From NCBI RefSeq assembly GCF_039566955.1, contig NZ_CP154796.1:1612001-1676000 (forward strand): a stretch of 64,000 nucleotides of DNA. The letters are read 5' to 3'. The translations under genes and the position numbers were made by a program. The notes under the pieces are model-generated. The model saw nothing but the letters and a program-made list of their open reading frames with translations, ran no database searches and was not told the DNA's origin. This document shows positions 7,029 through 55,221 of the stretch, in pieces. Positions within the stretch are counted from its first letter, which is position 1. Each line of letters starts with the position of its first letter. The stretch comes from Micromonospora sp. DSM 45708. Its GTDB lineage: Bacteria > Actinomycetota > Actinomycetes > Mycobacteriales > Micromonosporaceae.

Positions 7029-7050
7029 TGACACGTGCCTTGACGTGTCA
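7029..7050. promoter_or_regulatory. Inverted repeat in divergent promoter region
   Basis: Perfect 8-bp arms TGACACGT / ACGTGTCA around a 6-nt spacer, between the divergent serine hydrolase and nfeD genes and only 11 bp before the nfeD start. It may be an operator or a promoter-overlapping palindrome; this is inference from position. Confidence 0.45.
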
Positions 7051-7061
7051 CGATTGACCAC

Positions 7062-7535
7062 GTGGACGCCGTGTTCTGGATCGTTCTGGGTGTGGTATTG
7101 GCGGTCGCCGAGATCTTCACGACGACGCTCTTCCTGATCATGTTCGGGGTCGGGGCGTTCGCCGCGGCCGGCGCCGCCGCGCTCGGCGCGCCGGTGGCGC
7201 TCCAGGCGGTGATCTTCGCGGTGGTCTCGGCGCTGTCCCTGGCGCTGGCCCGGCCGGTGATCCGCCGGAACGCCCGGTCGGCGCTGGAGACCGGTGAGCA
7301 ACCGTTCGGCGTCGAGGCCATCGAGGGGGCCAGTGCGGTGGTCCTGGAGGCGGTGGACGCCGACCGGGGCATGGTCAAGATCGATGGTGAGCTGTGGACG
7401 GCCCGTTCGTTCGACGCGACGCGGGCGTACGCCGTCGGCGAGCGGGTGCAGGTGATAAAGGTCCGGGGCGCGACCGCCCTGGTCTGGCAGGACGACATTT
7501 CCGCCCCGGGCGGGCTGCCCGAAGCGAGAGGGTGA
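7062..7535 (+). CDS. NfeD family membrane protein
   Basis: 157-residue short NfeD protein. Three hydrophobic segments (about 4-20, 22-43 and 46-65) are followed by a soluble OB-fold domain (about 80-145) ending in KVRGATALVWQ. NfeD proteins partner SPFH proteins in membrane microdomains. The SPFH gene starts 4 bp after the stop codon, so the pair is translationally linked and almost certainly functions together. GTG start; the ribosome site is weak. Confidence 0.9.
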   Translation: MDAVFWIVLGVVLAVAEIFTTTLFLIMFGVGAFAAAGAAALGAPVALQAVIFAVVSALSLALARPVIRRNARSALETGEQPFGVEAIEGASAVVLEAVDADRGMVKIDGELWTARSFDATRAYAVGERVQVIKVRGATALVWQDDISAPGGLPEARG

Positions 7536-7539
7536 AGAT

Positions 7540-14624: not shown

Positions 14625-15437
14625 GTGCCCGTCCACGAGATCACCGACCCCGACGACGACCGGATCGCCGACTACCGCGCGTTGACCGACGTGGAGCTGC
14701 GGACCCGCTGGGAGCCCCCGCACGGGTTGTTCATCGCCGAGGGGGAGCTGGTGCTGCGCCGGGCGCTGCGGGCCGGCTACCCGGCCCGGTCGTACCTGGT
14801 CGAGTTGAAGCGGGCGGACCAGCTCGCCGACCTCGACACCGGCGACGTCCCGGTGTACGCCGCCACCGCCGAGGTGCTCCAGCGGACCACCGGCTTCCAC
14901 GTGCACCGGGGGGTGCTCGCGTCGTTCCACCGCCGGCCGTTGCCGTCGGCCGCCGAGGTGCTGCTGGCCGCCGCCCGGCGGGTGGTGGTGCTGGAGGACG
15001 TCAACAACCACACCAACCTGGGCGCGATCTTCCGGGCCGTGGCGGCGCTCGGGGTGGACGCCGTGCTGCTGTCGCCGACCTGCGCCGACCCGCTCTACCG
15101 GCGCAGCGTCCGGGTCAGCATGGGCGAGGTGTTCGCGGTGCCGTACGCGAAGCTGGAGCGCTGGCCGGCGGGCCTGGACGAGGTGCGGGCGGCGGGTTTC
15201 AGCGTGCTGGCCCTGACCCCGGCGCCGGACGCGGTGGCGATCCAGCGGCTCACCGACGGCCAGCGGGTCCGTGCGGCGCTGCTGCTGGGCGCGGAGGGTG
15301 CCGGGCTGACGGCGGCGGCGATGGCCGCCAGCGACGTGCGCGTGGTGATCCCGATGCGCCGGGGGGTGGATTCGCTGAACGTCGCCGCCGCCACGGCGGT
15401 GGCCTGCTGGGAACTCGGTCGCGACGACCCGATGTAA
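14625..15437 (+). CDS. SpoU/TrmH-family RNA methyltransferase
   Basis: 270-residue SPOUT 2'-O-ribose methyltransferase that uses S-adenosylmethionine to modify rRNA or tRNA. An N-terminal substrate-binding domain contains GLFIAEGELVLRRALRAG. The knotted catalytic domain shows motif 1 (LEDVNNHTNLGAIFRAVAA), motif 2 (LLLGAEGAGLT) and motif 3 (IPMRRGVDSLNVAAA). The GTG start is preceded, 6 nt away, by CAGAAT, a probable -10 box, so translation may be leaderless. The RNA target is unknown. Confidence 0.9.
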   Translation: MPVHEITDPDDDRIADYRALTDVELRTRWEPPHGLFIAEGELVLRRALRAGYPARSYLVELKRADQLADLDTGDVPVYAATAEVLQRTTGFHVHRGVLASFHRRPLPSAAEVLLAAARRVVVLEDVNNHTNLGAIFRAVAALGVDAVLLSPTCADPLYRRSVRVSMGEVFAVPYAKLERWPAGLDEVRAAGFSVLALTPAPDAVAIQRLTDGQRVRAALLLGAEGAGLTAAAMAASDVRVVIPMRRGVDSLNVAAATAVACWELGRDDPM

Positions 15438-15444
15438 CGCTCGC

Positions 15445-16931
<1,487 letters not shown>

Positions 16932-21763: not shown

Positions 21764-22528
21764 GTGGACTTCACCTTCGCCACCGCGCCCGGATCGGAGC
21801 GGCCCAACGAGGACCACGTCGTCGTGTCGCCCGACTGGGCGATCGTGCTGGACGGCGTCACCCGGCCGCCCGATCTGGACACCGGCTGCGTGCACGGTCC
21901 GGCATGGCTGGTGCGGGAGCTGGGCGACTGCCTGGTGGGCGCGTTGACGGCCGGCCCGGCGGCGCCGCTCGACCAGATCCTCGCCACCGCCATCGACCGG
22001 TTGCGGGGCCGCCACGGGGACCGCTGTGATCTGTCCGATCCGCACAGTCCGTCGTCGACCGTCGCCGTCGTCCGGGCCGCCGGTGACCACGTGGACTATC
22101 TGGTGCTGTGCGACTCGTCGGTGGTGTTCGAGAACGCGGACGGCGTCACGGTCGTCCATGACGACCGGGCCGACACCCTGCCGGCGTACGACCGGCACAC
22201 GGTGGCCCGGCTCCGCAACCGGCCGGGGGGCTTCTGGGTGGCGTCGACCGATCCGGCGGCGGCGGCCGAGGCGGTGACCGGCCGGGTGGCCCGCTCCGGG
22301 CTGCGCCGGTTGCTGCTCTGCACCGACGGCGTCTCCCGGCTGACCGAGTTCTTCGGGCTCGGTTGGGCGGAGGTGTTCGGGATCGCCGAGCGGTCCGGTC
22401 CCGGCGCCGTCATCGACGCCGTCCGCCGGTACGAGAGCAGCCGCCCGGAACTGTTGGCGCGGCCGGGTCGGGGCCCGGTCAAGCAGCACGACGACGCGAC
22501 GCTCGCCGTGCTGCTTCCCCGCGCCTGA
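21764..22528 (+). CDS. PP2C-like serine/threonine phosphatase
   Basis: 254-residue single-domain PP2C (PPM) phosphatase. Metal-binding positions are conserved: Asp17 in RPNEDHV, Asp30 in LDGV, CTDG around residue 188 and the C-terminal HDDAT. The usual DGxGG loop is altered to LDGVTRPPD. No membrane segment is present, so it is cytosolic. The GTG start lies 15 bp after murD2 with a poor ribosome site, suggesting co-transcription. Target unknown; the link to cell-wall genes or to the conflict island downstream is only positional. Confidence 0.8.
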   Translation: MDFTFATAPGSERPNEDHVVVSPDWAIVLDGVTRPPDLDTGCVHGPAWLVRELGDCLVGALTAGPAAPLDQILATAIDRLRGRHGDRCDLSDPHSPSSTVAVVRAAGDHVDYLVLCDSSVVFENADGVTVVHDDRADTLPAYDRHTVARLRNRPGGFWVASTDPAAAAEAVTGRVARSGLRRLLLCTDGVSRLTEFFGLGWAEVFGIAERSGPGAVIDAVRRYESSRPELLARPGRGPVKQHDDATLAVLLPRA

Positions 22529-22701
22529 CCAGGCCACCTGAGCGGGGCGTCGTGTGGTGACGGAATTCCGACGGTGCTCTTGCCCTCCGATGTGGGCGAC
22601 GGTTCAATACTGCCGTTCTCGCCCACGCCGAGGACCATCGCCGGGCGTCACCCGCACCGATTCCACGAACGGGCGGCCGGTTCGACGGGAGGGTGCCAGC
22701 C

Positions 22702-23082
22702 GTGATCGAGGAGACGGGCGGTCCGATGTCCTCCGAGGACCTGTACCGGACGGCGGCCATGGACGCCAAGACGTTGCAGGACCGCATCCTCACGGCGGCC
22801 GGTCCCGGCGTCGACGTCAGTGACGGGCACGCGCCCGCGCAGGCCCTCGCCGACGCCCTCCTCGCCGTGGTGCAGGACCACCTGGCGCAGACCTCGGACG
22901 AGCACGACGTGGAGTTGTTCCTCGAGGTCAACGGCCGGCCGCCGGAGGACGTCACCGCCTGGCCGGTGAACATCCTGGCCGGCCTCGTCCTCCGCCGGAC
23001 CCCGGCCGCCGACCGGCACGCGATCTGCGAGCGCGCGGTGCAGATCGCGGCCCGGCGGCTCCGGTCGTCGTCCGGCGCCTGA
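22702..23082 (+). CDS. Small helical protein of unknown function
   Basis: 126 residues from the GTG at 22702, chosen because GGGAGGG (22687-22693) lies about 8 nt upstream. Mostly alpha-helical by composition, acidic in the middle, with a basic end (AARRLRSS). No recognised domain, signal or membrane segment. It sits between the PP2C-like and murB genes, all on the same strand, with about 170 bp upstream that could hold its own promoter. Confidence 0.65.
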   Translation: MIEETGGPMSSEDLYRTAAMDAKTLQDRILTAAGPGVDVSDGHAPAQALADALLAVVQDHLAQTSDEHDVELFLEVNGRPPEDVTAWPVNILAGLVLRRTPAADRHAICERAVQIAARRLRSSSGA

Positions 23083-23141
23083 CCGACGGGTCGCGTCGAG
23101 GAAGCCGCGGGCGTCGCTGGCCCGGTCAGTAGGCTGGCACG

Positions 23142-24155
23142 GTGACAACCACGTTTGCTGATCTGACCACGATGCGGGTCGGTGGTCCGATCGGTCGCCT
23201 GTACGTTCCGGAGACCACCCCCGATCTGCTCGACCTGTTGCGCCGGGCCACCGCCGCCGGTGACCCGCTGCTGGTCATGGGCGGCGGGTCGAACCTGGTG
23301 GTGGGCGACGTCGGCTGGGACGGCACGGTCGTCCGGATGGCGACCTCGGAGTTCCGCATCGACGGTGAGCGGGTGACCGCCGCCGCCGGCGTCGAGTGGG
23401 ACCGCCTGGTGGCGGCCACCGTCGACGCGGGGCTCGCCGGCCTGGAGGCGCTGTCCGGCATCCCCGGTCTGGTGGGCGGCACGCCGGTGCAGAACGTCGG
23501 CGCGTTCGGCACGGTGACCTCGGACGTGCTCGACTCGCTGGCCGTCTACGACCGGCAGACCGGCAGCCTGGAACGGTGGACGCCGGAGCGGTGCGGCTTC
23601 GGCAGCCACCGGCAGTCCGTCTTCAAGCACAGCGACCGCTGGGTCGTGGTGGAGGTGACGTACCGCCTGCGCCGCAGCGGTCAGTCGCGGCCGATCGAGT
23701 ACGCGGAGCTCGCGAAGCGGCTGGGCATCGAGGTGGGCGGCACCGCCGCGCCGGCGGACGTCCGCGAGGTCGTGCTCGCGCTGCGGCGCAGCCGCGCCAT
23801 GGTCCTCGACCCGGATGACCACGACACCTGGAGCGTCGGGTCGTTCTTCATCAACCCGGTGCTCGCCGAGGTGCCGGAGTCGGCCCGGGAGTGCCCCCGC
23901 TATCCGGACGTCAAGGGCACCAAGCTGCCGGCGGCCTGGTTGATCGAGCGGGCCGGCTTTCCCCGGGGCTACGGTCACGACTGGGGAAACGGCACGGTGG
24001 CGCTGTCCAGCCGGCACGCGCTCGCGGTGACCAATCGGGGTGGCGCCACCACGTCCGAGGTCATGAAGTTCGCGGCGCACATCCGCGCGGGCGTCGAGGC
24101 GCGTTTCGGTATCCGGCTGGGGCCCGAATGCGATCTCGTCAACTGTTCCTTCTGA
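23142..24155 (+). CDS. murB: UDP-N-acetylenolpyruvoylglucosamine reductase MurB
   Basis: FAD-dependent reduction of UDP-GlcNAc-enolpyruvate to UDP-MurNAc, the second committed peptidoglycan step. 337 residues, type I layout. The FAD-binding motif VMGGGSNLVVGD lies near residue 45. The catalytic serine is in WSVGSFFINPV and the C-terminal glutamate is in LGPECDLV. A TAGGCT hexamer 6 nt before the GTG start suggests leaderless expression. It lies near murL/murD2, so this is a small cell-wall precursor neighbourhood. Confidence 0.93.
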   Translation: MTTTFADLTTMRVGGPIGRLYVPETTPDLLDLLRRATAAGDPLLVMGGGSNLVVGDVGWDGTVVRMATSEFRIDGERVTAAAGVEWDRLVAATVDAGLAGLEALSGIPGLVGGTPVQNVGAFGTVTSDVLDSLAVYDRQTGSLERWTPERCGFGSHRQSVFKHSDRWVVVEVTYRLRRSGQSRPIEYAELAKRLGIEVGGTAAPADVREVVLALRRSRAMVLDPDDHDTWSVGSFFINPVLAEVPESARECPRYPDVKGTKLPAAWLIERAGFPRGYGHDWGNGTVALSSRHALAVTNRGGATTSEVMKFAAHIRAGVEARFGIRLGPECDLVNCSF

Positions 24156-24359
24156 TCGGCTTTTCTCGGCGTGTCGGTTAGCCGACAATGTGCCGGCACC
24201 GGCGCGGAGTGGTCGAAGTGATTGCGGTCGAGCTGGTCGAAGGCCTGAACGTCCGCCAATTCGCGACCGGATCGGATGACCGCCGGGCAACCGTTCCGGT
24301 GTCGGTACGCCGCTGACGGGCGACTTCACCGTAGGTGTCCTCGCCTATGGTGACTGTCG

Positions 24360-24698
24360 ATGAACGAGACCGGTGCTCCCCACCCCGCCGACATTCTGCA
24401 ATACGCCATCGACGCGTTGGACGACATCCGCGAGGCGACGCTCCCGCCGGAGAAGTGGGAACGGTTCGGCGGCTGTCTGGTGCTGATGAATGAGGCACTC
24501 GATCACCACGACCTGGCCGCCGTCAATCGGTACCGGCAACAGATCGAGGCGCTCGAGAATCTGCTGGGTGCCAAGGCGGACCTCGCCACGGATGTCCGGC
24601 AGTCGGTGCCGCTGCGGGAGCAGGCCGATCGTCTACGCGACCGGCTTCGCCGGGAGAAGGGGGACGGCTCGGGGCCGGACGACGGCCGGGGCCGATGA
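24360..24698 (+). CDS. CATRA-associated small protein (CATASP-like)
   Basis: 112-residue, highly charged, almost entirely alpha-helical protein with a probable coiled coil from about 60 to 105 and a disordered Gly/Asp/Arg tail. Size, composition and a 4-bp ATGA overlap with the next gene match what I recall of the small accessory protein in CATRA conflict systems. It has no enzymatic motif, so a regulatory or adaptor role for the larger CATRA protein is likely. The upstream region has TATGGT about 8 nt before the ATG and no ribosome site, so the operon may start leaderless here. Confidence 0.65.
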   Translation: MNETGAPHPADILQYAIDALDDIREATLPPEKWERFGGCLVLMNEALDHHDLAAVNRYRQQIEALENLLGAKADLATDVRQSVPLREQADRLRDRLRREKGDGSGPDDGRGR

Positions 24699-26149
24699 GG
24701 CTGCACGCGTACGCGCTCAACGCGTACACCTTCTTCGACGGCCTCCGGGACACCGGGGTCGCGACGCGGATCGTCGCGGCCTGCCGCGCCCTCGGCATGG
24801 CGGAGCCCGACCGCGTGCCGCTCGTGCACGCCGACGGCCTGCGGGCCCGGCAGCTCCTCACCGCCCCGGGCGACGGCACGTGGCAGGCGTTGCGGTACGC
24901 CACCACCCGCCTGGATGCGTTCCTGGTCTGCCTGGCGCCGGTGGACGGCGCCGCGGACTGGCGCGAACTCGACCGGACGTGGCGGGAGGCGGTGGGCGCG
25001 GCGGCCGACGAGGACTGCACCGGCCGGGTGCGGCTGTTCTACGCGCTGTACGACGGCGCCGGTGACGCCGACCAGCTCGCCGTCGCGGCGGAGGCCGCGC
25101 TGCCGGCCGGAGCGAACATCCGTGGGGAGGAACCGACCGAGCCGGTGCCCGGCACCTATCTGTGGGAGGTCCCGTCCCCCGACCCGGACCGCCCGGAACG
25201 CGTCCTGGTGCTGCTGGCGCCCACCGCCGGCGAGACGCTGAGCGACTCCTGGGTGTGGCCGGACGGCGACGCGCGACTCCGGCCGCTGCCCGGCTACCTC
25301 TGGGAGATGGCCAAGGTCCGCCACGAGGCCCGCCGGTTCGCGGAGCGCCGCTCGCAGGACCGACAGGCCCGGTTGTACGACCTCGCGTCACACGTCGAGG
25401 ACAGCGAGCGGACCGACCCCGAACCGACCGAGGCCCGGGAGGAGCGGCTCCGGAAACTCCGGCGGGAGACGGCGTTGGGCGCCGCCGACGAGGCCGACCT
25501 GCGCATCATGTCCCGGACGGTCACGGCCGAGGAGCACAACGCCCGGATCTGGCTGCGCGACTGGGCGGGCACGCTCGCGGTGCCGGACCGCCACGCCTGG
25601 GTCGAGGGCCTGGCCGGGCCGGTGGCCGCCGACCTGGAGTACGTGGCCTGGTTGCTGACCGAGATCGACGACGCGGCGGACACGGCGCGGTACACCGTGG
25701 CCTACGCGGAGCCGATGGCGCAGATCGGCGCCGCCGACCTGGAACGGCGGCTGCGCGCCCTCGCCGAACGCAACGAATTCCTCACCGCGCTGCACACCTC
25801 GGTCCTCGCCGCCGTCGGTCTGCTGCTGGCCGCGTCCCAGTCCCTCAGCTACGACTGGCCGATGTACGCGTCGCTGCGGGCGCCGTTCATCGTCTCGGTG
25901 GCCGCCGGCGGGCTGCTCCTGCTGCTCGCCACGACGCTCCGGTCGACCCGCCGGTTCTGGGTGGGACTGGCCACCGCCGGCTTCGCCGCCTCGCTGACCT
26001 GGTTCGTGGTGACCTGGCTGGTCCGGTGGCAGACCGCCCGTCCGCCCGAAGCGTCGGTCACCCGCGGCTGGTCGGCCGCCGCCGCGGCGGCGGCGCTCGC
26101 CGGCTGGCTGGGCCGACGGGCGATCAGGTCCCGACGGGAACTGCGATGA
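24695..26149 (+). CDS. CATRA conflict-system protein with C-terminal membrane region
   Basis: 484 residues. The N-terminal domain (about 1-215, starting MRLHAYALNAYTFFDGL) looks like the CATRA-N (caspase and TPR repeat-associated) domain. A charged helical linker follows (220-270), then a C-terminal domain with about four hydrophobic segments between roughly 360 and 475, so it should be anchored in the membrane. By family knowledge CATRA proteins accompany caspase-like and TPR proteins in NTP-dependent conflict systems, and such a protease is encoded by the convergent operon. The start overlaps the previous stop as ATGA, giving translational coupling. Identification is from memory of the family. 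Confidence 0.65.
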   Translation: MRLHAYALNAYTFFDGLRDTGVATRIVAACRALGMAEPDRVPLVHADGLRARQLLTAPGDGTWQALRYATTRLDAFLVCLAPVDGAADWRELDRTWREAVGAAADEDCTGRVRLFYALYDGAGDADQLAVAAEAALPAGANIRGEEPTEPVPGTYLWEVPSPDPDRPERVLVLLAPTAGETLSDSWVWPDGDARLRPLPGYLWEMAKVRHEARRFAERRSQDRQARLYDLASHVEDSERTDPEPTEAREERLRKLRRETALGAADEADLRIMSRTVTAEEHNARIWLRDWAGTLAVPDRHAWVEGLAGPVAADLEYVAWLLTEIDDAADTARYTVAYAEPMAQIGAADLERRLRALAERNEFLTALHTSVLAAVGLLLAASQSLSYDWPMYASLRAPFIVSVAAGGLLLLLATTLRSTRRFWVGLATAGFAASLTWFVVTWLVRWQTARPPEASVTRGWSAAAAAAALAGWLGRRAIRSRRELR

Positions 26150-26186
26150 CCCACCCCGACCGTGTGCGACGACCGCAGGAGGATCC

Positions 26187-27560
26187 ATGACCGTGATGAG
26201 CGCCGAGCGCCTCGAGGAACTCTGCCTGGCCCTGCGCCGAGGCGAGATCACCTGCGACGACGACCTGGTGGCCGCCATCGAGGCCGACGTGGTGGCCTAC
26301 GACCGTGACCCGCGCACCCAGTTGCCGCCCGACGACGTCGCCGAACTGTTGCCGCTGATGGGCTGGCTGATGTACGAGGCGACCTGGTCGGCCCTGGAGC
26401 GGATTCCGAACCGGCGCGGGAGCGACGGCGACCGGGACGGTAATCACGAGTGGATCCTGCGGATCGCGAACGCCGCCCGTGACCTGCCGTGGCCGGAGTT
26501 CGCCCCGCGGGCGTTGGGCGCGTTCCGTTCGCTGGCGCTCGCCGAGTCGAAGGAGGACACGCAGGCGTCCTACGACCGTGCGCAGGACGCCCACCAGAAG
26601 GCACGCGAGCGCCACGCCAGCCATCTCTCCTACCACCGGGATCCGAAGAACGTCCCCTCTCCGTTCGGCGGTTTCGAGCTGCACTACGACGAGATGCTGC
26701 TCCAGTTGGTGCTGGCCGAGACCGGGACCGCGTGCCGGATCGCGGAGCGGGTCATCGACCGGTGGGCGGAGGAGTTCGCGGTCGAGGGTGACGACGCGGA
26801 TCGGCAGCGCCGCGAGGAACGCATTCAGATGATCTTCAGTGATCTGTCGAAGGGCGCCGTCCGGGGCGAGGAGGCGCTCACGGCGGCCGAGCGCGTCGCG
26901 GAGCACGGCTTCGTCGACGAGCCGACGAAGGAGCGGCTGGCGATGCCCACCAGCTTCGTCAACCCGGGGATCATGACCGCCCGGGCCATCCTGCTGATGC
27001 TGGGGTTGTACCCGGAGATGCAGCGGCTCGGCTACTTCCCGCTCGGCGACGACGACTCCTGGGACGACAGCCGGAAGGCCCTGGCGGCGCGCTTCGACCA
27101 CGCCTACTCCAAGATCGAGAAGCCGATCCTCACCAGCGGGGGTCAGCCGCAGGAGCTGCGGCGCGGCCTCCGGCTCGCCGTGGTGCAGATCCGGTTGGCC
27201 GCCGGGCTGCTGATGCCGGGCCACCGGCTGCCCAGCACGCTGTCCTTCGCGCCGTGCCTGGCGCACGAGGTGCTCGACGACGACGCCGTGGAAGCCCTGT
27301 CCGCCTGGTTGACGGAGACGATCACCGACTCGAAGGGCCGGGAGACGCAGCGCAGCAACCTGCGCGGGTTCGGCGGCTCGATCATGCCCAACTTCTTCGA
27401 CGGCGTCGAGGAGTGTCGCGTCGCGTTCGGCGGCCGGCCCGGCTACCGCGCGTGGCGCGCGCGCTGGTTCATCCTCGACAAGTACGCCGACGAGCCGGGC
27501 CGGGCCGAGCGGGTGTCGGCCGTGCTGGGCCGGCCGGTGAACCGGACCCGCCCTATCTGA
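26187..27560 (+). CDS. Uncharacterised third protein of the CATRA operon
   Basis: 457 residues, acidic, predicted mainly alpha-helical, without signal peptide or membrane segment. I recognise no domain. Features visible are a charged helix-rich region at about 130-160, a histidine/arginine-rich patch (ARERHASHLSYHRDP) and a C-terminal conserved-looking stretch with NLRGFGGSIMPNFFDGVEEC. An AGGAGGA site lies 3 nt before the ATG at 26187, so GTG 26193 or ATG 26196 may be the true start. It is 37 bp after the CATRA gene and overlaps the 3' end of the convergent protease gene by 8 bp. Confidence 0.75.
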   Translation: MTVMSAERLEELCLALRRGEITCDDDLVAAIEADVVAYDRDPRTQLPPDDVAELLPLMGWLMYEATWSALERIPNRRGSDGDRDGNHEWILRIANAARDLPWPEFAPRALGAFRSLALAESKEDTQASYDRAQDAHQKARERHASHLSYHRDPKNVPSPFGGFELHYDEMLLQLVLAETGTACRIAERVIDRWAEEFAVEGDDADRQRREERIQMIFSDLSKGAVRGEEALTAAERVAEHGFVDEPTKERLAMPTSFVNPGIMTARAILLMLGLYPEMQRLGYFPLGDDDSWDDSRKALAARFDHAYSKIEKPILTSGGQPQELRRGLRLAVVQIRLAAGLLMPGHRLPSTLSFAPCLAHEVLDDDAVEALSAWLTETITDSKGRETQRSNLRGFGGSIMPNFFDGVEECRVAFGGRPGYRAWRARWFILDKYADEPGRAERVSAVLGRPVNRTRPI

Positions 27561-29862
27561 CGTAGGCGTTGAACAACGCCCAGTTGGCCACCGGCTCGCC
27601 CGACCGCAGGTAGTGCAGTTGGGCGAGCCGGAGCGCGTGGTCGAGGCGGATCCCGGACCGCCGGACGAGCCCCACGAGATGCGCGGCCATCCGGCTGGCC
27701 GGGAGTTTCGCCACCTCCTCGATCGCAGCCGCGACGGACCGTCCCCCACCCGTCAGCACCGCCACCACGAGGCCGACCGGCTCGATGTCCGCCACGTTCG
27801 TCACCGCGCCGACCTGACAGGACACCATCAGCGTCGACGCCGGCCAGCGCAGGGCCAACGCGTACGCGGCGGACAACTGCGCGTCGGTGTCGGTCTCCTC
27901 CGGGAGAACGAGGTGCTGCCCGAGGCCGTGGCCGGTGCCGTGCGCCTTGACGTGGAGCAGTCCACACTCGGTTTCCTGCCGAAGGGCCACGCTGATCCGC
28001 GGGGACGGGTGCACCGTGGGTTCCTGTTCGTCGAACGGGCAGCGGCTCAGCGGGACGTCTCCCCGGCTCAGGGTCCAGGCTCTCCGTTCCAGTTCGTCCG
28101 ACGGGCCGCCGTGGGCCAACGGCACCAGCCGGACCAGCGCCGGGCCGGTGACCACCGGGGGCGGCGAGTCGGACAGACAGGTCAGCACCGGCGTGTGGGT
28201 GAGCACGGCCCGGCCCACCAGCCGGGTGCCCCCGGTGTCGAGCACCAGCGCCGCCCAGGGCACCAGGCACAGCTCCTGGTGCGCCGAGATCACCAGCTCC
28301 AGCGGGTCCCCGGTCGCCGCGTCGAGCCGGCCGCGCAGCTCGGCGGGAAGCAGGTCGAGGGCCAGCCGGTGCCAGTCCGGGTCACCCAGGTCGAGGTCGA
28401 TCGACCCCTCCGGGTTCCGGACCCGCCGACCGGCGACGTAGGCGGCGAGCTGCTCACCCGGGGTGAACCGTTCGAAGAGGACACCGCCGCCCGGTGTGAC
28501 GAGCGCGCGGAACCAGTTCGTCCCCGTGGCGAGGCTGTCCGGCAGGGCGGCGAAGTCGAGCGCGTACCTGTCGCCCAACGCGTGGCGCAGGGTGGTCAGG
28601 TCCGTCGGGGTGGGCAGCGTCATCTCCGCGAAGATCGGGTTCACCCGCTTCTCGATCCGCCGGTGCAGGGTGCTGATCTCCCGGTTCTGCTCCTCCCGTT
28701 GGTCCTCCGCCGCACGGGCATCCGTCCCGTGGTCGAGCGGATCATCCCGTTCGACCTTGAGCACGTCGTCGATCAGGCCTTGGAGCTGGTTGGGCAGCAA
28801 CGACACCTCGGCCCGCATCTGCGCGGCCAGCCCGGTCTGCTTGGCCGCCAGACACATGCGCAGTCCCAGCTCGGCGGCTCCGGGACCCCGCAGGGCCGCG
28901 GCCAGCAGCGCGATGTCGCCGTAGACCCGGCGGAACGCCGTCGACAACGGCGTACGCGCCCGGGAGATCACCCCCCACCGGCTCCGGATCCCCTCGGCGA
29001 CCGCCAGGGCCCGCGCCGCGAGCAGGACCGCGCGGTCGTTCCCGGGCTCGGTCAGCGCGAGCAGCTCGGCCAGCGTGAGCGTCAGCGACAACTCGTAGAC
29101 GTCGTGCTGGGGGTCGGCGATCCGGAACTCCGCCAGATGCGCCAGCGCCGCCGTCATCCGCGTGACGGCCTCCCCGGTGTGGCCGGCCGCCTGGTCGGCC
29201 AGCGCCAGGACGAAGCCGTAGCGGTGCCGGGTCGAGTAGGAGCTGGCCTCGGTCGACTCCCAGTAGGTCTGGGCCAACTCGCCGAGCGCGCTGTGCACCT
29301 CGGCGGCCTGGCCCAGCTCCAGCAGGCACGCGCCGGTCTCGAAGTCGACGTCGCCGGCGCGTGGCTCCGCGCCACTGGCGAAGAAGAACTCGCGGTCCAG
29401 GGTCGCCGCCAGGGCCAGCGCGTCCGCGGGCCGCCCCGACGCCCGGAGGCTGCGGATCAGCCGGTAGGTCACCGTGACCTCGGTCCACCTGTCGCGTACC
29501 GGCCCGTCGTCCGGACGGATCTCGGCGAGCGCCGTCTCGTACAGCTCCTCGACGGCGGGCGTCGAGCGCAGCGGATGGCCCAGGTAGGCGCAGAACCGCA
29601 GGATGGTGGCGGCGTTGGCGTTGCCGTCGCTGCGGAAGGACCAGTCGTGGTCGACCTGTCCCGCCCATTCGCGGCGGGTGGTCGCCTCGACCAGGTACCG
29701 CTCGACCGCGATCCGGAGCAACGCCTCCTCGTTGTCGAACACCCGGGCCTTGTGATCGTCCTTCCGCACGATGACCAACGCCTGCTCGGCGTCGTGGGCG
29801 AGCCGCAGCATGGTGTCGCGGGCCAGGGCGCGGCGTACCGCGTCGGCGAGGGCCTGGGTCAC
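27553..29862 (-). CDS. TPR-CHAT domain caspase-like protease
   Basis: 769 residues from the GTG at 29862, which overlaps the vWA stop codon (GTGA). The N-terminal two thirds are helical TPR-like repeats (about 90-430) with a charged coiled segment near 400-430. The C-terminal ~300 residues form a CHAT (caspase-like) domain with the catalytic dyad intact: His641 in HVKAHGTGHG and Cys682 in LMVSCQVGAV. CHAT proteases with TPRs act as proteolytic effectors in bacterial conflict systems; here the neighbours are a MoxR ATPase, a vWA protein and a CATRA cassette. The target is unknown. Longer upstream frames overlap the vWA gene and are not credible. Confidence 0.85.
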   Translation of the reverse strand: MTQALADAVRRALARDTMLRLAHDAEQALVIVRKDDHKARVFDNEEALLRIAVERYLVEATTRREWAGQVDHDWSFRSDGNANAATILRFCAYLGHPLRSTPAVEELYETALAEIRPDDGPVRDRWTEVTVTYRLIRSLRASGRPADALALAATLDREFFFASGAEPRAGDVDFETGACLLELGQAAEVHSALGELAQTYWESTEASSYSTRHRYGFVLALADQAAGHTGEAVTRMTAALAHLAEFRIADPQHDVYELSLTLTLAELLALTEPGNDRAVLLAARALAVAEGIRSRWGVISRARTPLSTAFRRVYGDIALLAAALRGPGAAELGLRMCLAAKQTGLAAQMRAEVSLLPNQLQGLIDDVLKVERDDPLDHGTDARAAEDQREEQNREISTLHRRIEKRVNPIFAEMTLPTPTDLTTLRHALGDRYALDFAALPDSLATGTNWFRALVTPGGGVLFERFTPGEQLAAYVAGRRVRNPEGSIDLDLGDPDWHRLALDLLPAELRGRLDAATGDPLELVISAHQELCLVPWAALVLDTGGTRLVGRAVLTHTPVLTCLSDSPPPVVTGPALVRLVPLAHGGPSDELERRAWTLSRGDVPLSRCPFDEQEPTVHPSPRISVALRQETECGLLHVKAHGTGHGLGQHLVLPEETDTDAQLSAAYALALRWPASTLMVSCQVGAVTNVADIEPVGLVVAVLTGGGRSVAAAIEEVAKLPASRMAAHLVGLVRRSGIRLDHALRLAQLHYLRSGEPVANWALFNAYVR

Positions 29863-31019
29863 GTCGGGACACCCCACTTCCGGTGGTCGCGATGACGGCG
29901 GCAGCGCGGCCCGCAGGTCGGACAGGCCAGCACGCCGGCGAGGGTGCGCAGGGCCGCCGCGTCGGGCGTGGCGACCAGTTGGACGTACGGCAGGCTGCCC
30001 ACCAGCGCCGGCGCGTACGGGGTGAACCCGGGCCCGCCGGCCTTCGGGTGTCCCCAGATCACCGCGTGGGCCAGCCGGGACAGCCGGCTGACCTGTGCCA
30101 CCAGGGGCGCCGGATCGGCCAGCTCCCACCCGTCGGAGACGATCACCAGATGCGCCGACCGCACGACGCGGTGGCCGCCCCAGACCCGGCCGAAGGCGGT
30201 GACGGCGCTCCCGAGCCGGGTCCCGGCGTCCCAGTCCGTGCGGCGGGCGGCCAGCGCGCGCATCGCCGTCTGCGGGTCGCGGGACCGCAGCTCCCGGGTG
30301 ATCCGGTCGAGCCGGGTGCCGATGGTGAACACCTCGGTCGTCAGCGGTGCGGCGGCGACCGCCGCGTACCCGAACCGCAGCAGCAGACCCCGGTACGCCC
30401 GCATCGAGTAGCTGAGGTCGAGCAGCAGGACCAGGCGACGTCGCGCGTGGAGACGACGGCGGTACCACAGCCGGGTCGGCTCACCCGCGGTGCGCATCAT
30501 CGTCCGCGCGGTGCGGGACACGTCGACGTGCCGCCGGCCGCCGGACGTGTGGCGCATCGTGCGGCGCAGCGGGACCGCCCTGGTGAACGCCTCGACGAAG
30601 GACTCCAGTTCGGTGCGGTCGGCGGCGCTCGACGTCCACGGTGGGGCGGTCGCCAACCGTTCGGTGGAACCGGCCCGGGAACGGGCCGATCCCGGCTCGG
30701 CGGTGTCGTCCCGACCCGGCTCCTCGACCGTCGCCGCGCGCACCGGCGCGGGGCCGGGCAGCGCGGAGTCACCTGCCCCGGTGGACGCGGCCGGCCCGAA
30801 CCAGGCGGCGAACGCGGCGTCGAAGACGGGCAGGTCCTCGTGGCGCGAGCACAACGTCAGCCGGGTCGCCCAGTAGACGGCGTCCCGGTCGAGCCGCTCG
30901 TACGCGCCGAGCGCGCGCATCGCGGTGGCCACCCGCGTCACCTCGACGCGGAGTCCGTCGGCGCGGAGCCGCCGGGCGAACCCGACCAGGTCGCGGACCG
31001 GGTCGTCGTCCGACGTCAC
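29859..31019 (-). CDS. vWA domain (CoxE-like) protein
   Basis: 386 residues. The N-terminal helical region with a basic Arg-rich linker is followed by a von Willebrand A domain from about residue 190. An intact MIDAS motif DLSYS sits in LVLLLDLSYSMRAY, with a later VSDGWEL. Such proteins partner MoxR AAA+ ATPases, the ATPase remodelling the metal-dependent vWA interaction. The GTG start overlaps the MoxR stop (GTGA) and its own stop overlaps the protease start in the same way, so the three proteins should be made in fixed ratio. Confidence 0.88.
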   Translation of the reverse strand: MTSDDDPVRDLVGFARRLRADGLRVEVTRVATAMRALGAYERLDRDAVYWATRLTLCSRHEDLPVFDAAFAAWFGPAASTGAGDSALPGPAPVRAATVEEPGRDDTAEPGSARSRAGSTERLATAPPWTSSAADRTELESFVEAFTRAVPLRRTMRHTSGGRRHVDVSRTARTMMRTAGEPTRLWYRRRLHARRRLVLLLDLSYSMRAYRGLLLRFGYAAVAAAPLTTEVFTIGTRLDRITRELRSRDPQTAMRALAARRTDWDAGTRLGSAVTAFGRVWGGHRVVRSAHLVIVSDGWELADPAPLVAQVSRLSRLAHAVIWGHPKAGGPGFTPYAPALVGSLPYVQLVATPDAAALRTLAGVLACPTCGPRCRRHRDHRKWGVPT

Positions 31020-31864
31020 GGGGCTCCCGCGCGCAGGACGTCGCGAACGGCCTCCTGGTCCTCGCGCTGCTTCACCAGCACCCCGAGCGCGTCGTCGGCG
31101 GCCTCGGCGACGGTGTGACGGCCGAGTGCCGCGGCGGCGCGGGCGAAGGCGATCGACTCGGCGACTCCGGGCGGACGGACCAGCGACAGTTGCCGCAGTC
31201 TGGTCATGGCGGTCGCGATCTGCGCGGCCAACGGCGTGCCGGCCACCTCCGGCACGTTGCGCCGGATGATCTCCGCCTCGTCCTGTTCGGTCGGATGGTC
31301 GACCCAGTGGTAGACGCACCGCCGTTTGAGCGCGCCGTGCACCTCGCGGGTGCCGTTGGAGGTGAGGACCACGAACGGCGGCTCGTCGATGGTGATCGTC
31401 TGATAGTCGGGAATGCTGAGGGTGTCGCCTTCGAGGACCTCCAGCAGGAATGCCTCGAACTCGTCGTCGGCCCGGTCGATCTCGTCGATGAGCAACACCG
31501 ACGGACGTTCCTCCACGGCCCGCAGAATCGGCCGGGCGATCAGGAACTCCCGGCGGTAGATCGATTCACCGTCCGGCGTGCCGCGCAGATGCAGCAGTTG
31601 ACGGGTGAAGTCCCACTCGTATAGCGCCTGGGAACGGTCGATGCCGCTGTGGCACTGCAACCGGATCGGTGCGACGCCGAGCATCTCGCCGATCTTTCTG
31701 GCCAGCACCGTCTTTCCCACGCCCGGGTCGCCCTCGAGGAACAGCGGCAACCTGAGTTTCATCGCGAGGAAGACCGCCGCGGCGAGCCCGGGAGCGGCCA
31801 GGTAGTTCAACCTCGCGAGTTCCTCCGCGATCCGTTCCGGCGTGGAAAAGGAAGCGTTCGGCAT
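31016..31864 (-). CDS. MoxR-family AAA+ ATPase
   Basis: 282 residues, the usual MoxR length. Walker A is EGDPGVGKT, Walker B is LLIDEIDRADDEFEAFLLEV, sensor 1 is VVLTSNGT and the arginine-finger region is ALKRRCVYHW. It hydrolyses ATP to remodel partner complexes, here presumably the vWA protein and through it the CHAT protease. It is first in the three-gene operon. The ATG at 31864 is chosen because it begins directly before the family's ERIAEELARLNYL helix; the ribosome site is weak. The promoter must lie in the 325-bp divergent gap. Confidence 0.9.
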   Translation of the reverse strand: MPNASFSTPERIAEELARLNYLAAPGLAAAVFLAMKLRLPLFLEGDPGVGKTVLARKIGEMLGVAPIRLQCHSGIDRSQALYEWDFTRQLLHLRGTPDGESIYRREFLIARPILRAVEERPSVLLIDEIDRADDEFEAFLLEVLEGDTLSIPDYQTITIDEPPFVVLTSNGTREVHGALKRRCVYHWVDHPTEQDEAEIIRRNVPEVAGTPLAAQIATAMTRLRQLSLVRPPGVAESIAFARAAAALGRHTVAEAADDALGVLVKQREDQEAVRDVLRAGAP

Positions 31865-32189
31865 CGGTCGAGATTCGGCCCGGGGCCGTACGCCTGTCGA
31901 TCCTATGAACGGGTGATCCGCCTTACTGATCGACCGAGCGGGCGGGCCGCCACGAGTGCGGAGAGGACCGGCCGGGCCGCCACCGACCGATCCCGGCGAG
32001 TGTCGTGGAAACGGTCGCGCCGGACCGGTCACGTGCGATCCGTGGAGCCGTCGAATCCGCGTTGACCGGCCATGATGCAAGGTGCGGCGCGGGGAGTGCC
32101 ATCGACCGACGGACGTCATTGTCGTCTAGAGTGCGAGACGCGGTCGCGACTCCTCGGCCCGTCCGTCACGAGTTCCGCGAAGGAGAAAC
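31865..32189. other. 325-bp divergent promoter region of the conflict island
   Basis: Separates the MoxR operon (left) from the paralogue pair (right). No credible gene. I see only weak -10-like hexamers, for example TAGAGT near 32130 on the plus strand and TAGGAT near 31900 on the minus strand, without good -35 partners. An AAGGAGA ribosome site for the rightward gene ends the region. Confidence 0.5.
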
Positions 32190-33173
32190 ATGGTCAGTTT
32201 CGACGCTGTCGCCCTTCCGACTTGCGAGCCGAACTTCCGTCCGCAGGCGGCGGCCGAGGAGATCCTCGCCTGGGTCTCGTCGCCGCCGATGCGTGCGCTG
32301 GTCGAGGAGTACGACGGCGTCCTGCCCTCGGCCGGCGTCGGCGAGCTGCTGGAGTGGCTCGACGCGTTCTCCGACCGGCACTGGAACTTCCGCAAGCGGG
32401 GCAACGTCGAGCGGGACCAGGTGACGGCGCCGACGTTCGAGCCGGCCCGGGCCGCGCTCGTGCTCGCCGCGGCGACCGCACTGCGTCTCGTCGAGCCGGC
32501 CGAACCGCCCCGCGCGGCGTACGACCACCTGCTCGTCCTGGGTGGCCTCGGGCGGGCCTGCCTGCAACGCACCGAGTACGCCGCCCGGCTCGTCCGCGAG
32601 GGCGTCGTCTCGGTCGGCGAGGTGGCGGCGCTCGGCAGCTTCCGACCGCTGACCGAGCCGGAGACCACGCTGCCCGGCCTGGCCGACGGTCGGTTCGAGA
32701 TGGACGCGATGGACGTCGGTGCGCGCCACGCGTTCGGGCTCGCCGAGCCGGCGCGGTGTGAGTCCTCCGAGGGGGCGGTGACGCACCGGTCCTGGCAGGT
32801 GCGCACGTACCGGCCGGTCGGCGGCCCGCCGGTGCAGGTGCTCGCCGCGCCGTCCAGCGAGCCCGAGCTGCGTCGCGCCAACACCCCCGACACGTACGAT
32901 TTCTGGGCCCGGCGCTCCAGTCTCCGGCCGACGGACCGGATTCTCGTCGTCACCTCCCCGATCTACGTGCCGTTCCAGCACAGCGACGCGATCCGCATGC
33001 TGGCGGCGCGCCACGGCTGCGGGATCGACACGATCGGCTTCGACCCGGCGCGGTCCTCGGTGCCGCTCGCGCCGGGTGCCACCAATCCCGACCGCTACCT
33101 CCAGGAGATCCGCTCCGGGATCCTGTCGATGCAGCGGTTGCACCGGGCGTTGGCCGGGAGCCTGGCCGCGTGA
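32190..33173 (+). CDS. Possible DUF218/YdcF-like protein, paralogue 1
   Basis: 327 residues, soluble, no signal peptide. It shares colinear blocks with the next gene: HLLVLGGLGRACLQRT, ALGSFRPLTEPE, RRANTPDTYDFW, ILVVTSPIYVPFQHSDAIR and a terminal QEIRSGILSMQ. The sequence of LGG...R, then E, an NT motif and VVTS...A resembles the DUF218 (YdcF/SanA) Rossmann-like fold, but the match is distant and is my inference. Expressed divergently from the MoxR-vWA-CHAT operon with a good AAGGAGA site. Function unknown. Confidence 0.7.
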   Translation: MVSFDAVALPTCEPNFRPQAAAEEILAWVSSPPMRALVEEYDGVLPSAGVGELLEWLDAFSDRHWNFRKRGNVERDQVTAPTFEPARAALVLAAATALRLVEPAEPPRAAYDHLLVLGGLGRACLQRTEYAARLVREGVVSVGEVAALGSFRPLTEPETTLPGLADGRFEMDAMDVGARHAFGLAEPARCESSEGAVTHRSWQVRTYRPVGGPPVQVLAAPSSEPELRRANTPDTYDFWARRSSLRPTDRILVVTSPIYVPFQHSDAIRMLAARHGCGIDTIGFDPARSSVPLAPGATNPDRYLQEIRSGILSMQRLHRALAGSLAA

Positions 33174-34165
33174 CGGCGGCGGTCTTCGCCGCGGTGCCGT
33201 TGCCCACCACCGGGCCGCCGGCCGGCCGCGCGGACGGGTCCGTCGCCGGGCCGGCGCCAGCGGACCGGGCCGGCATCGCCGAGGGGATCGCCTCCTGGGT
33301 GGACTCGCCGGCGATGACCGCACTGCTGGCCGAGTTCGGCGGTGGGCCCCGGCCGGTCGGTCCGCTCGGCGACCGTCTGGACGCGCTGGCGGAGTTCTCC
33401 GCCCGGTGGGACTACCGGAAGGGGCTGGAGCGCCACCAGGCGGTGGGGGAGAGCTTCGCCGCTGGCACCGACGCGCGCATCCGGTCGGCGGCGAGGTCGT
33501 TGGGGCTGGCCGGCCGCGTGATGCCGAGGAGCCTGTGGTTCGACCACGTCCTGGTGCTCGGCGGCGGCGTCCGCACCATGATGGCCCGTGCGCATCTGGC
33601 CGCCGCGATCCTGCGCCGGGGGGTGCGCGCCGGCTCGGTCGCGGGGCTGGGCAGCCTGCGGCCGATTCCGGAGCAGAACGTGATCGCCGCCGGGCTCGGG
33701 CTGGGCGCCGTCGCGACCGAGGGCGACGCGGTCGACGAGGCGCTGCGGCACGCCTTCGGCGCGGCGCCCGCCACCGAGCGGCGCTCCGGCACGACCGGGG
33801 CCGGTCAGCCCTGGTGGGTCCGGTCCCATCGGGACGTGGATCCGCCGGTGCACGTGCTGGCCGCACCGTCGACCCGGGCGGGCGAGCGGGCCAACACGGC
33901 GGACACGTTGGTCGGCTGGGCGGAGCTGGTGCGGCCGGCGTCGGTCGGCGCGCGACTGCTGGTGGTCACGACCGACATCTTCGTACCGTTCCAGCACTGC
34001 GACGCCGTCCGGCTGCTCGGCCTGCGGTACGGCTGCCGGGTGGAGACGGTGGGCTTCGACAGCGGCGCCGATCCCTGGGTGCCGCCGCCGGCGACCTCCG
34101 CGATCCTCCAGGAGGTCCGGTCCGCCATCCGGTCCATGCGGGTGTTGTACCAGGCGGTCGCCTGA
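33170..34165 (+). CDS. Possible DUF218/YdcF-like protein, paralogue 2
   Basis: 331 residues, clearly paralogous to the preceding protein along its whole length. Matching blocks are HVLVLGGGVRTMMARAH, LGSLRPIPEQN, RANTADTLVGW, LLVVTTDIFVPFQHCDAVR and QEVRSAIRSMRVLYQA. Its N terminus has an extra Ala/Pro-rich stretch. The GTG start overlaps the upstream stop (GTGA), so the two proteins are coupled and may form a heteromer. It probably arose by tandem duplication. No catalytic residues can be named with confidence. Confidence 0.7.
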   Translation: MTAAVFAAVPLPTTGPPAGRADGSVAGPAPADRAGIAEGIASWVDSPAMTALLAEFGGGPRPVGPLGDRLDALAEFSARWDYRKGLERHQAVGESFAAGTDARIRSAARSLGLAGRVMPRSLWFDHVLVLGGGVRTMMARAHLAAAILRRGVRAGSVAGLGSLRPIPEQNVIAAGLGLGAVATEGDAVDEALRHAFGAAPATERRSGTTGAGQPWWVRSHRDVDPPVHVLAAPSTRAGERANTADTLVGWAELVRPASVGARLLVVTTDIFVPFQHCDAVRLLGLRYGCRVETVGFDSGADPWVPPPATSAILQEVRSAIRSMRVLYQAVA

Positions 34166-41515: not shown

Positions 41516-42931
41516 ATGAACAGGCGTGAGATCCTCCGGCGCAGCGCCGCCGCCGGTCTGCTGGCCACTCCCGCCGCCGGCCTGCTCGCCGGCTGCGCCA
41601 CCTCCGGCGGCGACGACAAGGGCGACGCGGGCGCGTACAAGGGCACCAAGAGCGAGCAGAACCCGCTCGGCGTCGCCGAGGACGCGCCGCTGGAGGTGGT
41701 GATCTTCAACGGCGGCTTCGGCGAGGAGTACGCCAAGGCCCACGAGGCGATGTACAAGGAGAAGTACCCGAAGGCGGAGGTCAAGCACTCGGCCACCCAG
41801 GAGATCAGCAAGACGCTCCAGCCGCGCTTCGTCGACGGCAGCCCGCCGGACGTGGTGAACAACTCCGGCGCGGGGCAGATCGACTTCAACGGCCTGGTCT
41901 CCCAGAACGCGCTGGCCGACCTCGGCGAGCTGCTCGCCGCGCCCAGCCTCGACGTGCCCGGCAAGACGGTCAAGGACACGCTGCTGCCCGGCACCGTCGA
42001 GGTCGGCTCCTACGACGGCCGGTTCCTGGTGCTCAACTACACCTACACGGTCTACGGCATCTGGCACTCCACCAAGCTCTTCGCCGAGCGCGGCTGGAGC
42101 TACGCCAAGACCTGGGACGAACACATCGCGCTCTGCCGGCAGATCAAGGCCGCCGGCATCGCCCCCTGGACGTACGCCGGCCTGCACCCGCGCTACATGA
42201 GCTGGCCGCTGATCTCCACCGCGATCAAGCTGGGTGGCCCGTCCGTGGCGCTCGCCATCGACAACCTGGAGCCCAACGCTTGGAAGTCGGACGCGATGAG
42301 GACCGCCGCCGACGCCTGGCACCAGATCGTCAAGGACAGGTTCATCCTCGACGGCTCCCCGGGTCTGGACCACAAGCAGTCGCAGACCGCCTGGTGCCAG
42401 GGCAAGGCCGCGTTCATCTCCTGCGGCTCCTGGCTGGAGAGCGAGCAGAAGGACGTCACCCCGGCCGGCTTCAACATGACTGTCGCGCCGACGCCGAGCC
42501 TGGGCAGCGGCGACAAGCTGCCGTTCGAGGCGATCCGGGGCACCGCGGGCGAGCCGTTCATGGTGCCGGCGAAGGCGAAGAACGTGGCCGGCGGGCTGGA
42601 GTACTTCCGGACCATGCTGTCGCGCAAGGGCGCCCAGGACTTCACGAGGAAGGTCGCCAGCCTGCCCGTGGTCGCCGGCGCCACCGACGGCGTGGAGCTG
42701 CCGTTCGGGCTGGCCACCGTGGTCAAGGCGCTGGACGCGTCCGGCGCCAACGGGTTCAACTGGGTCTACAACAACTACTACCGCAAGCTGGAACGCAACC
42801 TGGTGGACGCGGCCTGCGGCGAGTTCTTCAGCGGCCGGATCTCCCCGGCGGAGTTCCTCGACCAGTGCCAGAAGGGCGCCGACTCGATCGCGCAGGACAG
42901 CTCCGTCAAGAAGTACAAGCGGGCCGCGTGA
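41516..42931 (+). CDS. NgcE-like sugar-binding lipoprotein, system 1
   Basis: Extracellular solute-binding protein family 1, 471 residues. The N terminus has twin arginines followed by a hydrophobic stretch and a lipobox LAGC with Cys27, so it is probably exported (possibly by Tat) and lipid-anchored. The mature domain contains VVIFNGGFGEEYAKAHE, close to the second system's protein at 52835. NgcE-type proteins bind N-acetylglucosamine or chitobiose; the substrate here is inferred by similarity. CGAGGAG precedes the ATG. First of three genes, followed by two permeases; no ATPase gene, so a shared MsiK-type ATPase is expected. Confidence 0.85.
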   Translation: MNRREILRRSAAAGLLATPAAGLLAGCATSGGDDKGDAGAYKGTKSEQNPLGVAEDAPLEVVIFNGGFGEEYAKAHEAMYKEKYPKAEVKHSATQEISKTLQPRFVDGSPPDVVNNSGAGQIDFNGLVSQNALADLGELLAAPSLDVPGKTVKDTLLPGTVEVGSYDGRFLVLNYTYTVYGIWHSTKLFAERGWSYAKTWDEHIALCRQIKAAGIAPWTYAGLHPRYMSWPLISTAIKLGGPSVALAIDNLEPNAWKSDAMRTAADAWHQIVKDRFILDGSPGLDHKQSQTAWCQGKAAFISCGSWLESEQKDVTPAGFNMTVAPTPSLGSGDKLPFEAIRGTAGEPFMVPAKAKNVAGGLEYFRTMLSRKGAQDFTRKVASLPVVAGATDGVELPFGLATVVKALDASGANGFNWVYNNYYRKLERNLVDAACGEFFSGRISPAEFLDQCQKGADSIAQDSSVKKYKRAA

Positions 42932-42938
42932 CGGTCGG

Positions 42939-43850
42939 ATGCGACACGGTCGATACCCACTGATCCTCAGCTTCCTGCTGCCACCGCTGGCGCTGTACGG
43001 CATCTTCGTGCTGTCGCCGTACCTCCAGGCGTTCCAGATCTCCACCACCGACTGGCTGGGCTACTCCGCGCAGGCCGACCAGGTCGGCCTGGCGAACTTC
43101 CGCACGCTGCTGCACGACGGGTACGTCTGGAACGCGTTGCGGAACAACGCGATCCTGCTCGCGGTGGTGCCGGTGGTGACTATCGCGCTGGGTCTCTTCT
43201 TCGCCAGCATGCTCACCATGGGCGGTCGCAAGGGCCGCGCCGGCGTCACCGGGGTACGCGGCACCGCGCTCTACCGGCTGGTCTACTTCTTCCCGCAGGT
43301 GCTCTCCGTGGTGATCATCGCGTTGCTGTGGAAGGAGATCTACAGCCCGACCAGCGGCCTGCTCAACGGCGCGCTACGCGCGATCGGGCTGACCTCCACG
43401 CCGGCCTGGCTGGGCGATCCGCGATTCGCGTTCTGGTGCGTGCTGGCCGTGATGGTGTGGAGCAACGTCGGGTTCTACGTGGTGCTGTTCGGCGCCGCCA
43501 TGCAGGCCATCCCGCGCGACATCTACGAGGCGGTGCTGCTCGACGGCGCGTCCCGGGCCACCATGCTGCGGAAGATCACCATTCCGCTGCTCTGGGACAC
43601 CATCCAGGTGGCCTGGATCTACCTGGCCATCGCCGCGCTGGACGGCTTCATCCTGGTGCAGCTCATGACCAACGGCGGGCCCAACTTCTCCTCCGACGTG
43701 ATCGGTTTGCGGATGTACGACACCTCGTTCGGCAGCGAGAACAAGTTCGGGTACGCCTCCGCGATCGGTGTGGCCATGTTCTTCCTGACCCTCTCGGTGG
43801 CGGTGCTGGCGCTGCGGACCGCCCGGCGTGATCGGATCGAGTACTCGTGA
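42939..43850 (+). CDS. NgcF-like sugar ABC permease, system 1
   Basis: 303-residue MalF-type permease with six predicted membrane segments. The EAA loop (IYEAVLLDGASRATMLRKI), which docks the ATPase, is near residue 200. It starts 7 bp after the binding-protein gene and its stop overlaps the next start, so all three genes are one operon. Confidence 0.88.
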   Translation: MRHGRYPLILSFLLPPLALYGIFVLSPYLQAFQISTTDWLGYSAQADQVGLANFRTLLHDGYVWNALRNNAILLAVVPVVTIALGLFFASMLTMGGRKGRAGVTGVRGTALYRLVYFFPQVLSVVIIALLWKEIYSPTSGLLNGALRAIGLTSTPAWLGDPRFAFWCVLAVMVWSNVGFYVVLFGAAMQAIPRDIYEAVLLDGASRATMLRKITIPLLWDTIQVAWIYLAIAALDGFILVQLMTNGGPNFSSDVIGLRMYDTSFGSENKFGYASAIGVAMFFLTLSVAVLALRTARRDRIEYS

Positions 43851-55208: not shown

Positions 55209-55221
55209 AGGAGGCGCGGCG

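Follow-up and report, generated by a model that had tools for sequence, protein, structure and literature searches.

What holds together the eight genes at positions 24360-34165 of a 64,000-nucleotide stretch of the genome of the soil actinobacterium Micromonospora sp. DSM 45708 (contig NZ_CP154796.1, positions 1,612,001-1,676,000; hereafter the window), and do they act as one system? The block encodes a CHAT-domain cysteine protease, a putatively membrane-anchored CATRA protein and a MoxR ATPase with a vWA partner, and a sequence-only reading had taken all eight genes as a single defence or regulated-death system, in which MoxR-vWA gates the protease and the CATRA protein is a partner or effector. 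Comparison of 15 loci showed a smaller constant part: the CHAT protease and g457, a 457-residue protein predicted to be TPR-like, occur together in all of them (15/15) and form the sole invariant pair. As judged from sequence comparison, we give a probability of roughly 0.5 to the block being accessory and acting as a conflict or regulated-death module gated by the protease.

The gene models bore out eight genes in three transcription units (rightward, leftward and rightward), which are given here together with neighbours on their left:

21764..22528, + strand: PP2C-type phosphatase gene, island-associated neighbour (PF13672, 31.1 bits, cut-off 24)
22702..23082, + strand: 126-residue protein, function unassigned (Pfam search without match; relative in 5/10 loci compared)
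23172..24155, + strand: murB2, a second MurB (FAD_binding_4 and MurB_C)
24360..24698, + strand: CATASP, CATRA-associated small protein (PF20271, 39.6 bits, cut-off 29)
24695..26149, + strand: CATRA protein (CATRA-N PF20269 and CATRA-C PF20270, both above cut-off; NF038357)
26187..27560, + strand: g457, 457 residues, TPR-like alpha-solenoid by predicted fold
27553..29862, - strand: CHAT-domain cysteine protease (PF12770 in relatives; catalytic His/Cys)
29859..31019, - strand: CoxE-type vWA protein (PF05762, 137 bits; metal ion-dependent adhesion site, MIDAS, motif)
31016..31864, - strand: MoxR-family AAA+ ATPase (AAA_5, 48.5 bits; Walker A/B)
32190..33173, + strand: par1, YdcF/DUF218-like protein by predicted fold
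33170..34165, + strand: par2, paralogue of par1 (45% identity to the par1 query, expect value (E) 1.3e-52)

Adjacent genes overlap by 4 bp at 24695-24698, 29859-29862, 31016-31019 and 33170-33173, so that coupling overlaps, which had been claimed inside each unit, hold for four of the five within-unit junctions but not for the fifth, since CATRA and g457 are separated by a 37-bp gap. The g457 and CHAT genes lie tail to tail with an overlap of 8 bp. Third-position G+C was 0.83-0.95 across the tabulated open frames (some longer than the final models, and CATASP left out); the gene caller was of a simple codon-position type, and the Pfam search covered only part of the flanking genes. A promoter and terminator scan found 0 promoters and 0 terminators, and an Rfam search gave 0 matches.

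In order to separate constant from variable members, locus contents were scored by tblastn, blastp and Pfam. A scan of 84,980 species genomes for CHAT retrieved 10 loci, all from Micromonosporaceae; because it relied on two short patterns, distant relatives would escape it, and four loci (L028, L030, L074, L075) came from other searches. Merging duplicates (L026 with L057, L027 with L059, L029 with L063, L076 with L058) left 15 distinct loci, namely the window, L057-L066, L028, L030, L074 and L075, of which L030, L074 and L075 belong to other families of the same order. The CHAT query was positive in 8/201 relatives, two of them weak partial matches (genomes G055 and G019) that were excluded both from the 15 loci and from the five genomes counted among 121 below. 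The g457 query matched 5/397 genomes of the order, all five with CHAT at the locus, and in a class-wide sample 1/394, solely the window's own genome. The vWA query matched 99/201 relatives, yet an identity of 59% or more was reached in just two other genomes. Within the 15 loci, g457 adjoins CHAT in 13, with CATASP-CATRA intervening in the other two (L061, L062). MoxR-vWA was detected in eight (window, L057-L062, L064) and CATRA likewise in eight (window, L057-L059, L061-L063, L028), each not being found in the other seven. The claim of one system thus stands for units 1 and 2 taken together, on the constancy of g457 with CHAT, but not for a fixed set of eight genes, whose other members proved modular when co-occurrence was surveyed; the sequence-only reading overlooked g457 as the constant member, as well as murB2 and the PP2C gene as tracking neighbours.

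The protease assignment draws mainly on relatives. A Pfam search gave no match for the window CHAT protein or its relative in L058, but six relatives (L060, L061, L064, L065, L074, L075) matched PF12770 at 43-67 bits (cut-off 24), a 92%-identical homologue carries PF12770 in precomputed annotation, and the catalytic His (residue 641) and Cys (residue 682) are invariant in 15/15 loci. Alignment against solved structures reached a best E of just 0.017. CHAT homologues are named TPR proteins in 3/25 annotation rows, and Pfam TPR matches in the protein and its relatives are insignificant. For g457, the best VIA Z of its model was 14.4, which the tool describes as ordinary for a helical model, and the top structural rows are mostly TPR proteins (identified partly by their titles), which is why we assign it as TPR-like by predicted fold. 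Foldseek alone returned nothing with E below 1e-3 for the g457 and par models. A 330-residue extension of g457 in L065, which is low-complexity and has no significant Pfam match, was set aside as it looks like a wrong start.

The first unit raises the question of whether the block is a CATRA system. Both CATASP and CATRA-N were confirmed by their profiles: the CATRA protein scored 62.1 bits for CATRA-N (cut-off 27), 38.8 bits for CATRA-C (cut-off 24.6) and 136.7 bits against NCBIfam NF038357 (cut-off 90), and its hydropathy shows three C-terminal hydrophobic segments (residues 362-380, 397-415 and 421-439). CATASP is above cut-off at 6/7 scanned CATRA loci including the window (L058, L059, L061, L062, L063), L028 falling below with 21.9 bits against 29. 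A profile search found CATRA-N in 15/201 relative genomes, and of the 10 other CATRA loci in relatives, eight of which were scanned for neighbours, 7 have a CHAT neighbour and one a caspase. We take CATRA proteins to be defined by their association with caspase-like and TPR proteins, and it is with this definition that the window's CHAT and g457 were compared; for the linked TPR protein, g457 is TPR-like by predicted fold. By their sequence, units 1 and 2 jointly have what marks a CATRA system, and the window resembles such systems in carrying CATRA-N/C and CATASP above cut-off beside CHAT, whilst differing from them in the addition of g457, of a MoxR-vWA pair apparently derived from CoxD/CoxE, and of partner exchange. 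The system is best read as a variant of CATRA/CHAT systems, not of VMAP. A limited-term search of full-text literature, which did not reach the founding CATRA description, did not find this combination described. TIR-domain proteins of CAP12/Pycsar type were also observed close to further CATRA loci in this genus (L035 14474-18625, L038 6448-6990).

The position next to the core is occupied by different genes in different loci. CATRA lies directly upstream of g457 in four of its eight loci, between CHAT and g457 in two, and divergent from CHAT in two (L063, L028). Three loci (L060, L074, L075) instead encode LCAT/PGAP1-like lipases, with profiles above cut-off and mutual identity of 35-39%, and no lipase relative was found in the other 12, all eight CATRA loci included. 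In L060 and L074 the genes for the lipase and g457 share 4 bp, and in L075 (4131-7016) the two are fused into one 961-residue protein, a fusion that points to the likely substrate side. Related caspases (30% identity) occur in L064 and L065, and a DUF900 hydrolase gene, divergent from CHAT, occurs in L066; the lipases and this hydrolase have a [GA]HS[MT]G elbow in common. In L065 (Dactylosporangium siamense) the caspase C14, that related to the one in L064, is accompanied by a further CHAT protein with a strong score (135 bits) at 3717-7571, by the CHAT-par region, and in L066 (Actinoplanes italicus) an Hsp70-like protein is found beyond the CHAT-g457 pair, at 14741-16627.

The MoxR-vWA pair lies immediately upstream of CHAT on the same strand in 8/8 loci that have it. 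Profiles upheld both assignments, VWA_CoxE at 137 bits (cut-off 26.4) and AAA_5 at 48.5 bits (cut-off 22); the MIDAS motif is intact (DLSYS, GTR, SDG), and so are Walker A (GDPGVGKT from residue 45) and Walker B (LLIDEI). In the vWA tree, from which L062 (truncated model) and L103 were excluded, the seven of eight CHAT-linked vWAs that were placed form a single clade (support 100/99), which indicates one origin of this partner. The nearest neighbours of the clade are CoxE-type proteins of L083 and L084, loci with molybdopterin dehydrogenase subunits and, in L083, also XdhC, which argues that MoxR-vWA was co-opted from CoxD/CoxE. The MoxR tree (L092, L096 and L103 excluded) is compatible but unresolved, with one CHAT group supported at just 69/65. 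The window's vWA and MoxR are related in sequence to the CoxD/CoxE pair of molybdenum CO/xanthine dehydrogenases, the nearest outside vWAs being in loci of that kind, but the CHAT-linked vWAs form a separate clade and stand beside CHAT instead of a dehydrogenase. From gene starts in the window, part of the genes being scanned, no molybdopterin dehydrogenase gene was noticed, and a MobA-like gene at 58120-58713 lies 26 kb away. Kaur et al. (PMC7159879) likewise derive MoxR-vWA from CoxD-CoxE.

A MoxR, a vWA and a caspase-superfamily protein in an actinomycete also recall the published MoxR-vWA ternary systems (VMAP, iSTAND, FtsH and beta-propeller types; iSTAND2, TERNS3), which pair such a switch with a caspase-superfamily protease, and whose iSTAND vWAs have a CoxE-like N-terminus as well. 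Kaur et al. report VMAP caspase domains as always accompanied by a neighbouring alpha/beta-hydrolase gene, which resembles the relatives of the window. Membership in VMAP, iSTAND or TERNS3 is nevertheless very unlikely: Pfam recognised a third component in none of the window proteins, the vWA has nothing besides its vWA domain in Pfam, no effector domain was found on it, and g457 and CHAT take the place of a recognised published third component. For VMAP, the search result is that the unknown window proteins have no Pfam match in a profile set whose content of VMAP models was not checked. VMAP membership was rejected on the MoxR protein itself, which lacks the N-terminal aromatic motifs (WxhapG, PsWRxa) given by Kaur et al., as the only 44 residues before its Walker A hold no Trp.

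How the pieces have travelled was assessed on a CHAT tree, in which mutual attraction of the long L074 and L075 branches is possible. It needs 2 changes for MoxR-vWA, 3 for CATRA, 3 for the hydrolase (2 of them forced), 3 for par and 4 for murB; out of 500 label shuffles, values as low arose 3 times for MoxR-vWA (clearly clustered), 25 times for CATRA (weakly clustered), 159 times for murB and in all 500 for par, the last two not being clustered.

The third unit and the genes to the left of the block allow two further explanations. Close copies of murB2 in the genus (79-100% identity) and close copies of the PP2C gene (73-100%) are found in exactly those 5/121 sampled genomes in which CHAT matches strongly; the next PP2C relatives by score are at 49% (another family) and 48% (genus), with partial matches up to 53%. 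For a single gene, such an overlap would arise by chance about once in 2e8 if genomes are taken as independent, a figure that shared descent weakens greatly. The other MurB of the window genome, encoded elsewhere, is 52% identical to murB2, and among called genes at L077, L079 and L080, which have no CHAT, none matched PP2C or murB. Since murB2 and PP2C track CHAT, the island probably begins near 21764, and the accessory region probably spans about 21764-34165, wider than first noted. Tracking is imperfect within the genus: the 22 kb of L062, from a Micromonospora that did not belong to the sample, contain CHAT but neither murB2 nor PP2C.

The pair par1/par2 is YdcF/DUF218-like by predicted fold. 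It differs from YdcF/ElyC/SanA proteins in having no DUF218 Pfam match (E up to 1), and its homologues carry PF27209 in precomputed annotation. That the pair is an inseparable part of the system was not sustained, and its use as a diagnostic part was rejected, as par1 relatives occur in 97/201 genomes, only 6 of which have a strong match to the window CHAT. The par family is present in 12/15 loci and MurB in 9/15. In genome G145, par genes stand next to a Mur ligase in an apparent division/cell-wall cluster (L082 9672-10670) and next to murB (L106 7712-9852), the CHAT-g457 locus being on a different contig.

These cell-wall associations suggest that CHAT and MoxR-vWA proteolysis could instead serve envelope-stress regulation coupled to the supply of peptidoglycan precursors, in which murB2, PP2C and the YdcF-like pair would be functional partners. 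PMC3879167 places the DUF218 protein ElyC in cell-wall precursor metabolism, and two CHAT lineages occupy differing positions at the same mur locus: in G047 and G056 the block lies between a MurD-like ligase and PP2C, and in the window between murB and par, so that different CHAT lineages have reached the same neighbourhood. (That G047/G056 represent a window-like island minus MoxR-vWA was rejected, their CHAT grouping with L066 (100/99), not with the window.) We regard this alternative as possible but improbable. In six of the 15 core loci the retrieved stretch has no murB (L062, L064, L065, L066, L030 and L075, the last a 9.3-kb contig), the Micromonospora locus L062 breaks the tracking, partners such as CATRA, lipases and caspases are characteristic of conflict systems, and an E. 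coli ydcF deletion is reported to have had no growth phenotype.

Rather doubtful, in turn, is a hotspot assembly in which CATRA, the CHAT core, MoxR-vWA and the YdcF-like pair would each be independent cargo, sharing a site without a common mechanism. Consistent with this, in 10/15 CATRA-N genomes the 20-kb locus has no match to g457, MoxR or vWA and, to the window CHAT, a partial one at most, the block lies on differing sides of PP2C-murB between genomes, and the widespread par relatives can stand alone, as in G108 (L077 8927-10809), where tandem par1-par2 lie at a MurD-like ligase locus in a genome with no CATRA or CHAT; the 20 kb retrieved there contain no g457, and the called genes include neither murB2 nor PP2C. 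Separate cargoes would however hardly keep g457 with CHAT in 15/15 loci, including those off the mur site, retain the MoxR-vWA-CHAT order in 8/8, or fuse lipase to g457. In addition, par genes adjoin the CHAT unit away from the mur locus, both on the short contig L075 and in L062 and L065, whose retrieved stretches showed no murB, so that par-CHAT co-occurrence merely through a shared mur locus was rejected.

Elsewhere in the window, possible signalling or conflict genes encode two large NTPase-TPR proteins, one of HTH-NB-ARC-TPR make-up (helix-turn-helix; 45459-47867, 802 residues) and the other a TPR protein that matches AAA weakly (59285-62803, 1172 residues), and two alike three-gene sets (41516-44722 and 52835-56178) are, by gene starts only, apparent sugar ATP-binding cassette transporters.

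Under the reading that we prefer, a protease-gated conflict or regulated-death module, the constant core would be the CHAT cysteine protease with TPR-like g457, and the likely effector would be the swappable partner, i.e., in the window a membrane-anchored CATASP-CATRA and in relatives a lipase of LCAT/PGAP1-like type. The threshold would be set by MoxR-vWA, recruited from the CoxD/CoxE maturation pair. A trigger would be sensed by the vWA/MoxR or the TPR part, ATP-driven remodelling would free or activate CHAT, CHAT would cleave g457 or the contact between g457 and the effector, and the membrane partner would then damage or reshape the membrane, with the cell dying or ceasing to grow. We infer each of these functional steps, what CHAT cleaves, and death or defence as the outcome, with the mechanism modelled on Craspase, in which a controlled TPR-CHAT cleaves an inhibitor, and on the caspase-hydrolase neighbours in VMAP systems. 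The proposed likeness to Craspase (TPR-CHAT (Csx29)-Cas7-11) is a partner-controlled CHAT protease that cleaves a dedicated substrate, as set out in PMC10028731; the window differs in that g457 has no Csx30-like assignment, and no CRISPR genes were noticed among its called genes by gene starts, no CRISPR-specific scan having been made.

Several observations weigh against this module. No fitting PADLOC model was found, just low AAA-type scores for MoxR; L030 has the core without a recognised adjoining effector; the partner position is variable, with CATRA in three arrangements and the DUF900 gene of L066 divergent; L064 and L030 have, at a greater distance, generic alpha/beta-hydrolases unrelated to the lipases; on the CHAT tree the hydrolase label, counting L066, shows no clustering beyond chance (145/500 shuffles as low); and the 15 loci share descent. 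CHAT could be regulatory instead, and the cell-wall genes adjoining it allow a housekeeping reading.

More tentatively, these loci may represent a class of ternary systems with a CHAT-g457 core, interchangeable CATRA, lipase or caspase partners, a co-opted CoxD/CoxE switch and a physical link to murB2 and YdcF-like genes, by which they may guard the synthesis of cell-wall precursors or signal its state. In CHAT with g457, the comparison names the compact constant core of a family of caspase-like modules in bacteria. If the proposed module is real, CoxD/CoxE chaperones would have been recruited to a CHAT-type system, which would back the published proposal of maturation chaperones being reused as switches of conflict systems.

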